NCBI RefSeq assembly: GCF_003722315.1
Contig: NZ_CP033580.1
Span: 186,001 to 250,000, forward strand
DNA: 64,000 nt
Origin: Thermoanaerobacter ethanolicus JW 200
GTDB taxonomy: Bacteria; Bacillota; Thermoanaerobacteria; Thermoanaerobacterales; Thermoanaerobacteraceae
Direction: 5' to 3'
Below are positions 43,700-46,614 of this stretch, piece by piece (position 1 is the first letter of the stretch; every line of letters starts with the position of its first letter). Below the pieces are notes generated by a model. It was not told where the DNA came from. It searched no databases and worked only from the letters and a program-made list of their open reading frames with translations. A program made the translations under genes and the position numbers.

Positions 43700-44113
43700 T
43701 TACAATATGGTTACAAATCCTTCTGCTTTTACTATTTTAATATTTTTATACTCTTTAAGTTGAAGCAAATGATTGTCACCTGTGACTATGAAGTCACAAC
43801 TTCCTTCTAAAGCACACTCTAAGAAAATATTATCTTTTGGGTCTTCTTTTATAACCTCTATTTTTTGTTTTGGATATACAAATAAAACCCAATCAAAAGA
43901 TAAAAGCCTATTTAGCAAGTCAAGTCTTTTCTCAATAGTGCCAAAAACAGCAAACTTATCTCGTGTCAACACATCAGCATATTCTTCCACAATTTCTTTA
44001 CTTACTACCGGGTTAAATTTATTTAAGACCCAGTAATCAATAACTTTTGCAGGATAGCTTTTTTTGCTAATAAAAGCTGAAATTAAAACATTAGTATCAA
44101 TTACTGCCCGCAT
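43700..44113 (-). CDS. PIN-domain toxin (PilT-like)
   Basis: The 137-residue putative RNase opens with AVIDTNVLISAFISKK (first Asp), then VSKEIVEEYADVL (Glu), DNIFLECALEGSCDFIVTGDNHLL (distal Asps). It overlaps the preceding Phd-type gene by 13 nt. This is a second PIN-type toxin pair in the window, of a different subfamily from VapC at 31.3 kb. Confidence 0.87.
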   Translation of the reverse strand: MRAVIDTNVLISAFISKKSYPAKVIDYWVLNKFNPVVSKEIVEEYADVLTRDKFAVFGTIEKRLDLLNRLLSFDWVLFVYPKQKIEVIKEDPKDNIFLECALEGSCDFIVTGDNHLLQLKEYKNIKIVKAEGFVTIL

Positions 44114-44382
44114 TTTCGTGCTTCCTCTATCTCTTTTTGTACGTCTTCTTCAGATAAGCCTGCTGTTTCGGCTTTACTTCTAAATTCGTTTAAAATTTGC
44201 ATAATCTCTAATTGTTTTGCCTTCTTTTCAAGTTCTTTTAATTGATTGTACATAGAATAACTTATTATAACTCCTTTGGGTTCAGATCGAGAAGAAACTA
44301 TTATCACATCGCCTTTTTCTACTTTTTCTAAATATTCACCCAATTTGGGCCTTAATTTGTCTACTCCAATGACTTCTTCCAT
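44101..44382 (-). CDS. Phd/YefM-type antitoxin
   Basis: The 93-residue protein begins with EEVIGVDKLRPKLGEYLEKVEKGDVIIVSSRSEPKGVIISYSMYNQL, the DNA-binding Phd/YefM fold. A charged helical C-terminus for toxin binding follows. It has Shine-Dalgarno GGAGGTGAAA and is coupled to the downstream PIN toxin gene. Confidence 0.88.
   Translation of the reverse strand: MEEVIGVDKLRPKLGEYLEKVEKGDVIIVSSRSEPKGVIISYSMYNQLKELEKKAKQLEIMQILNEFRSKAETAGLSEEDVQKEIEEARKCGQ

Positions 44383-44487: not shown

Positions 44488-44489
<2 letters not shown>
44465..44489 (-). terminator. Terminator of pyrG
   Basis: AAGGGCTGG (44465-44473) / CCAGCCCTT (44481-44489), with a weak AAATTTT tail on the minus strand. Confidence 0.75.
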
Positions 44490-46119
<1,630 letters not shown>

Positions 46120-46151: not shown

Positions 46152-46181
46152 AAAAAAATCTCTATTTTGGAAAAATAGAGA
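46152..46181 (-). terminator. Intrinsic terminator (attenuator) in the pyrG leader
   Basis: Perfect 10-bp stem TCTCTATTTT (46159-46168) / AAAATAGAGA (46172-46181), loop of 3, followed on the minus strand by seven Ts, about 65 nt before pyrG. It lies downstream of a good promoter, so it is inside the leader. It could instead be the delayed terminator of the UPF0175 gene. Confidence 0.7.
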
Positions 46182-46239
46182 CTCGTATCCCTTTAAGTTT
46201 AAATAAATTTTTTGATTTTTTACAATACCGCCAGTACAT
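46162..46239 (-). CDS. 25-codon leader ORF before pyrG
   Basis: The ATG at 46239 has GAGGTG seven nt upstream. The frame encodes 25 residues beginning MYWRYCKKSKNLFK and ending VSIFPK. Its stop codon (46162-46164) lies in the leader terminator hairpin, so a ribosome finishing this ORF would cover the stem. This fits translation-linked attenuation. It may also be a chance ORF; no homologue is known to me. Confidence 0.45.
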   Translation of the reverse strand: MYWRYCKKSKNLFKLKGIRVSIFPK

Positions 46240-46272
46240 AAAAAAGCACCTCGTGAAAATAAATACTTATTT

Positions 46273-46301
46273 ATTATATAGGATTTTAAAGTGATTGTAA
46301 A
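46273..46301 (-). promoter_or_regulatory. pyrG promoter
   Basis: TTTACA (46296-46301), 17-bp spacer, TATAAT (46273-46278) on the minus strand, starting 8 bp after the UPF0175 stop codon. Confidence 0.72.
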
Positions 46302-46308
46302 GAGTGCA

Positions 46309-46614
46309 TTATTGCTTTTTATTAATTCTAATAAGCTCCTTATATTTTTCTATTGCTTGTAGATCCATTTCGTAATCTTCTTCAGTATAATTTATAACCG
46401 GAATTCCATTATTGTTTAATAACTTCATAAAATCAACTAAATTATAACCTGCTAATTCTGCAGCTCTTCCTAAGCTTATTACTTTTTCCACATATAGGCC
46501 AATTGCAAGAGCTTCTCTTAATATTTTATCCGATTTTACAAAAGAAGAAAATGCATTTATTTCTGTAAACAATTGTATAGGTATTTTTAACTCTATAGTT
46601 TTTTGTTCCTCCAT
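46309..46614 (-). CDS. UPF0175 family protein (antitoxin-like)
   Basis: The 101-residue protein has the UPF0175 pattern: a hydrophobic strand (KTIELKIPIQL), a helical ILREALAIGLYVEKVISLGRAAELAGYNLVDFMKLLNNNGIPVINY, then an acidic tail. Members resemble small DNA-binding antitoxins and often sit beside PIN-domain toxins. No toxin gene adjoins it here, so it may be an orphan. Shine-Dalgarno GAGGTGAT. Confidence 0.82.
   Translation of the reverse strand: MEEQKTIELKIPIQLFTEINAFSSFVKSDKILREALAIGLYVEKVISLGRAAELAGYNLVDFMKLLNNNGIPVINYTEEDYEMDLQAIEKYKELIRINKKQ

Follow-up and report, generated by a model that had tools for sequence, protein, structure and literature searches.

A conserved, pyrG-specific leader in Thermoanaerobacter ethanolicus and its relatives with the predicted anatomy of an attenuator

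The window analyzed here is a 64,000-nt stretch of the genome of Thermoanaerobacter ethanolicus JW 200 (NZ_CP033580.1), in which the CTP synthase gene pyrG and its leader lie on the minus strand. The leader consists of a promoter, a small reading frame with its own ribosome binding site, a conserved 22-nt element and an intrinsic terminator, as follows.

46273..46301, minus strand: pyrG promoter, TTTACA-17-TATAAT, 11 of 12 consensus matches
46266, minus strand: inferred (unmapped) transcription start, the G of a conserved GTATKTAT and the seventh base after the -10
46247..46252, minus strand: Shine-Dalgarno sequence GAGGTG of the leader ORF, 7 nt before the ATG at 46239
46162..46239, minus strand: leader ORF, MYWRYCKKSKNLFKLKGIRVSIFPK, 25 codons plus TAG (46164-46162), derived by frameshift from a conserved ORF of 13-17 codons
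46173..46194, minus strand: conserved element AAAGGGRTANRAGTCTCYATTT, window version AAAGGGATACGAGTCTCTATTT, a single copy per genome, in pyrG leaders
46173..46194, minus strand: candidate antiterminator or pause hairpin, AAAGGGAU-ACGA-GUCUC-(UA)-UUU, 8 pairs
46152..46182, minus strand: intrinsic terminator, stem 46182-46159 plus U-tract 46158-46152, -9.8 kcal/mol at 37 C
44488..46089, minus strand: pyrG, CTP synthase, 533 aa, Pfam CTP_synth_N plus GATase

The promoter, the GAGGTG-7nt-ATG start, the 25-codon frame and the U-tailed hairpin named in the initial annotation are all found in the window where it had placed them. The stop codon of the frame sits in the 3' arm of the terminator hairpin, whose 5' arm, GUCUC, is shared with the 22-nt element. 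A single window sequence alone proves little. A pattern scan found 6 promoter-like sites versus 4.8 expected in shuffled sequence, a generic scan that requires at least three G-C pairs did not list the terminator, and the whole leader folded no better than its shuffles (z -0.90). The window leader rises above chance because its promoter, Shine-Dalgarno-ATG pair and hairpin are kept in all 21 leaders of this type described below. Just 5' of the promoter lies a gene for a UPF0175 protein (46309-46614, minus strand); by eye, the sequence at this place differs in most relatives and the pyrG promoter stays constant. Directly 3' of pyrG, a PIN_3 toxin-like and Phd/YefM antitoxin-like pair occupies 43700-44382 of the same strand.

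Among 61 genomes searched, pyrG was found in 59, and the same pyrG leader was present in 21 of the 24 genomes of the order, spanning two families. With up to two mismatches allowed, the 22-nt element was found in 20 of the 61 genomes, one copy apiece; its exact form was found in 21 of the 37 genomes of the class, always before pyrG. Since it occurs as a single copy per genome, a role as the mark of a genome-wide regulon was rejected. The three members of the order without the element are an 89%-complete genome with no pyrG match (G018) and both genomes of family f3, in which pyrG (L019, L020) appears by eye to follow directly after another reading frame. A scan of one genome per species, covering 84,980 species, yielded 12 matches, nine of which are pyrG leaders of this type (three read directly, six assigned by position) and three of which are unrelated. 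Matches outside the order were rejected at L058 and L062, where they fall inside long ORFs, and at L061, where the match is close to the beginning of a contig and this leader is missing. In 398 genomes of the phylum, nine further matches outside the order, each with two mismatches, had no pyrG start nearby; a reversed control pattern matched 15 of the 398, and additional element matches with two to three mismatches were about as frequent as those of the control. By eye, this leader type was absent from 19 more distant pyrG leaders (L065-L083) and from families f3 and f4. The comparison defines a compact, order-wide, pyrG-specific element of 22 nt for which this analysis returned no Rfam match, and no such pyrG leader was found in the open-access literature searched.

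The 21 leaders share a consensus that runs from TTTACA-17-TATAAT through a Shine-Dalgarno sequence and ATG, a short ORF closed by UAA and the 22-nt element to a terminator built on the GUCUC of that element. The promoter hexamers and their 17-nt spacing are identical in 20 of the 21 (G003 has TTTACT), and a Shine-Dalgarno sequence G(A/G)GGTG lies 5-9 nt 5' of the ATG in every one. The initial annotation had suggested that translation of the small ORF could decide terminator folding, and the lack of conservation that would speak against this was not seen: ORF start, Shine-Dalgarno sequence and terminator are conserved across both families. Conservation is concentrated in the signals, with identities between genus groups of 98% (-35), 96% (-10), 88% (Shine-Dalgarno sequence) and 92% (element), as against 45% in the promoter spacer, 49% in the ORF body and 37% in the downstream spacer. 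Relative to the distant family f2, the element retains 90% identity, compared with 43% for the ORF body, 25% for the promoter spacer and 34% for the rest of the terminator; the f2 terminator has a different 3' arm and loop, yet the element is kept, including an invariant AUUU that there lies merely in the terminator loop. Most leaders also preserve the inferred 5' end, GTATKTAT (46266-46259), with no obvious reason for doing so.

The 25-codon frame ending inside the terminator stem, which the initial annotation took as the arrangement of this leader, holds for the window strain and for G061 (a member of the same species by computed kinship, with a leader identical to that of T. wiegelii Rt8.B1, L063), and for these two of the 21 leaders only. 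The conserved form is a frame of 13-17 codons abutting the 22-nt element, which had gone unseen. ORF lengths are 13 codons in seven leaders, 14 in eight, 15 in three, 17 in one and 25 in two; in the 19 leaders with 13-17 codons the frame ends no more than 8 nt from the element, just 5' of the terminator, with the UAA overlapping the first element bases in 12 and beginning 7-8 nt upstream in seven. Measured from the first base of the stop to the first base of the stem, the distance is 13 nt in those 12 leaders and 19-20 nt in the seven, and in the remaining two the stop is inside the stem. When ORF bodies were dinucleotide-shuffled, a stop arose at that place in 7-16% of shuffles per leader, figures that are not freely multipliable because the leaders share ancestry. 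The 25-codon form results from one A fewer in the A-run before the stop; it appears to be a species-level exception, and one that would still be compatible with a ribosome suppressing the terminator. The leader peptides themselves diverge (by eye, MNWRDDKNLKKFI, MSHYRRKFKKPSKN, MDKDKVLKQKSTPKIFY and MANRCAKSLKFTYKK, with Lys-richness as the sole common trait), and inspection by eye found no conserved regulatory codon or arrest motif among them. This lack of amino-acid conservation points to the position of the ribosome, and not to a peptide signal, as what matters. Taken together, the 90% identity of the element between families and a stop held beside it by the reading frame suggest selection. 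In the window strain and G061 (L051), the ORF has the frameshifted 3' half in common but differs in codons 5-9 (MYWRYCKKSK versus MYWRDDKNLK), as if by recombination inside this short frame.

Judged by its sequence, the pyrG leader is thus a conserved and pyrG-specific one with the apparent anatomy of an attenuator, and the contact between ORF stop and terminator has the predicted geometry of translation-dependent attenuation. The reading that we prefer, although we hold it tentatively and at somewhat less than even confidence, is a translation-coupled, terminator-based attenuator in which CTP-sensitive pausing would let the leader ribosome suppress the terminator. When CTP is plentiful, polymerase would cross the element undelayed and outrun the leader ribosome, so that the terminator would form and pyrG would be switched off. 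When CTP is low, polymerase would halt short of the invariant C's in GGGAUANRAGU^CUC, and during the halt the ribosome would translate the short ORF and close up behind it; once polymerase resumed, a ribosome that had reached the stop or its vicinity would hinder the hairpin, and transcription would run on into pyrG. In 12 leaders, the halted polymerase would stand about 15 nt past the first stop base, where a ribosome could close up but hardly pass. What the leaders show is conservation; CTP sensing, pausing and translation are proposed.

The consensus elemental pause has GG at -11/-10, G at -2, a pyrimidine at -1 and G as the next base. The corresponding GG-N7-GU^C is found at the element in all 21 leaders and arose by chance in 1-6% of the shuffles of each of six leaders; GG-N7-GY alone arose in 18-40% of shuffles. 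GGGRUANRAGU^C resembles such an elemental pause, but its next base is C rather than G. The existence of a consensus, though not its letters, is mentioned in PMC6336406. The preferred model needs few invariant bases, and the fixed AAA, UA and AUUU of the element are left unexplained by it.

The closest parallels to such a mechanism are the E. coli rph-pyrE and pyrBI attenuators, in which a frame with a ribosome binding site ends near or within a terminator, and in which the proximity of the ribosome depends on pausing by polymerase. These systems sense UTP, through a long upstream frame or a 44-codon leader; here CTP is proposed instead, and the E. coli systems lack the conserved 22-nt element. 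According to a study of E. coli, termination at an intrinsic terminator falls to less than 10%, versus about 90%, when a ribosome occupies a nearby stop codon, this suppression is fully relieved only beyond 27 nt, and in pyrBI the pause sites set the coupling and make it strict (PMC4824070); it is by analogy with the latter that pausing is proposed to decide ribosome closeness here. The E. coli logic presumes a coupled organism, whereas the present leaders belong to Bacillota, which are classed as runaway transcribers (PMC13323073). A survey of terminator-to-stop distances covering 45 of the 52 ORFs of the window (seven antisense-overlapping ORFs were dropped) identified seven terminators whose starts lie between -11 and +17 nt relative to a stop codon; several of these overlap the ORF end, as expected under runaway transcription. 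These ordinary terminators beside stops presumably work in the window strain, so a nearby stop codon is not in itself enough to inactivate a terminator in this strain. A role for the ribosome would require polymerase to be delayed, and we infer that a CTP-sensitive pause would supply that delay.

A different role for the element is suggested by its folding. It can form a hairpin, AAAGGGRU-ANRA-GUCUC-(YA)-UUU, that is mutually exclusive with the terminator, and a protein or ligand that signals scarcity of CTP might hold this hairpin and so exclude the terminator, with the ribosome clearing or protecting the site; BglG/LicT-type proteins, which hold RNA targets, offer an analogue. All variable positions of the element are tolerated by the fold (an A/G that keeps its U pair, two loop bases and one bulge base), and pairing is complete in 100% of 88 alignment cells from 11 distinct rows, compared with at most 77% when the mask is slid. 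Before the terminator 3' arm is made, the five core pairs all reach P>=0.5 in 19 of the 21 leaders, and the AUUU that is invariant in f2 despite its place in the terminator loop would find a reason in this hairpin. There is, however, no covariation (seven of the eight pairs never vary in the 11 rows), and the alignment is compatible with the structure, not proof of it. The hairpin core amounts to -4.9 kcal/mol at 37 C, the ensemble energy at 65 C is no better than -0.5 to -1.4 kcal/mol across the four leader types folded, and P drops to no more than 0.053 after the 3' arm has been made, so that the hairpin would need help. Its formation is poor in G003 and G008. The terminator stem, with a pyrimidine-rich 5' arm, is paired in 90.2% of 102 alignment cells and includes one pair with a double change. 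An anti-antiterminator, in which a 5' part of the leader would pair with the element, was rejected, as the best duplexes differ in position among species. The hairpin might form only in passing and assist pausing, or it might be an antiterminator that requires a factor; the latter leaves the conserved ORF without a reason and depends on a factor that is itself hypothetical, and we regard it as possible but rather unlikely.

The overlap of stop with hairpin and of hairpin with terminator would also suit an attenuator of the trp or vmlR kind, in which a stop-bound ribosome masks the hairpin's 5' half so that the terminator folds, and slow or absent translation allows the hairpin to form and pyrG to be read. 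B. subtilis vmlR provides a precedent from a Bacillota leader, with a uORF, an antiterminator overlapping the terminator, pausing and attenuation; it differs in having an antibiotic-stalled tripeptide uORF, a resistance gene and unrelated sequence (PMC9226507). That the peptides, judged by eye, have no codon or arrest motif in common speaks against such a mechanism, its sign and its specificity for pyrG make little metabolic sense, and a ribosome translating a T. wiegelii-type leader would move into the terminator itself. We consider it unlikely, and equally so its corollary that the leader senses translation and not CTP. Slightly less likely still is a terminator that leaks at a constant level without regulation, the leader peptide being incidental, which would accord with a leader that folds no better than its shuffles, but not with an element conserved at 90% between families or with a stop kept beside it by the frame.

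In B. subtilis, pyrG transcription starts at GGGC with CTP-sensitive reiteration of G, and the G-rich strand pairs with the pyrimidine-rich arm of a leader terminator; reiteration of G at the start and a leader terminator are likewise described for Streptococcus pyrG (PMC4448216). The present leaders share with these attenuators the gene, the leader terminator and presumably the signal. As the initial annotation had remarked for the window, a GGGC start is not evident: with +1 as inferred, none of the 21 leaders has GGGC between the -10 and the element, GGG at +1..+5 or C within +1..+10, in contrast to Bacillus and Streptococcus, and CTP sensing at initiation is therefore unlikely. A start at the GGG of the element was rejected as unsupported, given an upstream promoter conserved in all 21 leaders and, by eye, no -10 before AAAGGG in g2 leaders. 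Unrecognized G-tract stuttering of the B. subtilis type is thus very improbable, even with the same gene and a pyrimidine-rich terminator arm in its favor.

Here the G-rich AAAGGG is instead encoded beside the terminator and touched by the ORF stop. A speculative extension, to which we assign a low probability, is that the antiterminator strand made by stuttering in Bacillus would here be hard-wired and gated by the ribosome, with CTP-dependent pausing imposing coupling on demand in a runaway-transcribing bacterium. If true, CTP would be sensed in front of pyrG in a second, distinct way that does without reiterative transcription, and the leader would offer a natural test of conditional ribosome-polymerase coupling in runaway-transcribing Bacillota.

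PyrR-dependent control was also considered, as the PyrR RNA (RF00515) is likewise a pyrimidine attenuator, and was rejected for this leader, in which the match scores 19.4 bits against a gathering threshold of 54, covers the terminator only and lacks the binding loop; no RF00515 match at E<=1 was obtained in L050, L041, L038 or L031. Three PyrR-like sites occur elsewhere in the genome (L093-L095), with scores of 43.6-53.4 bits, just below that threshold.
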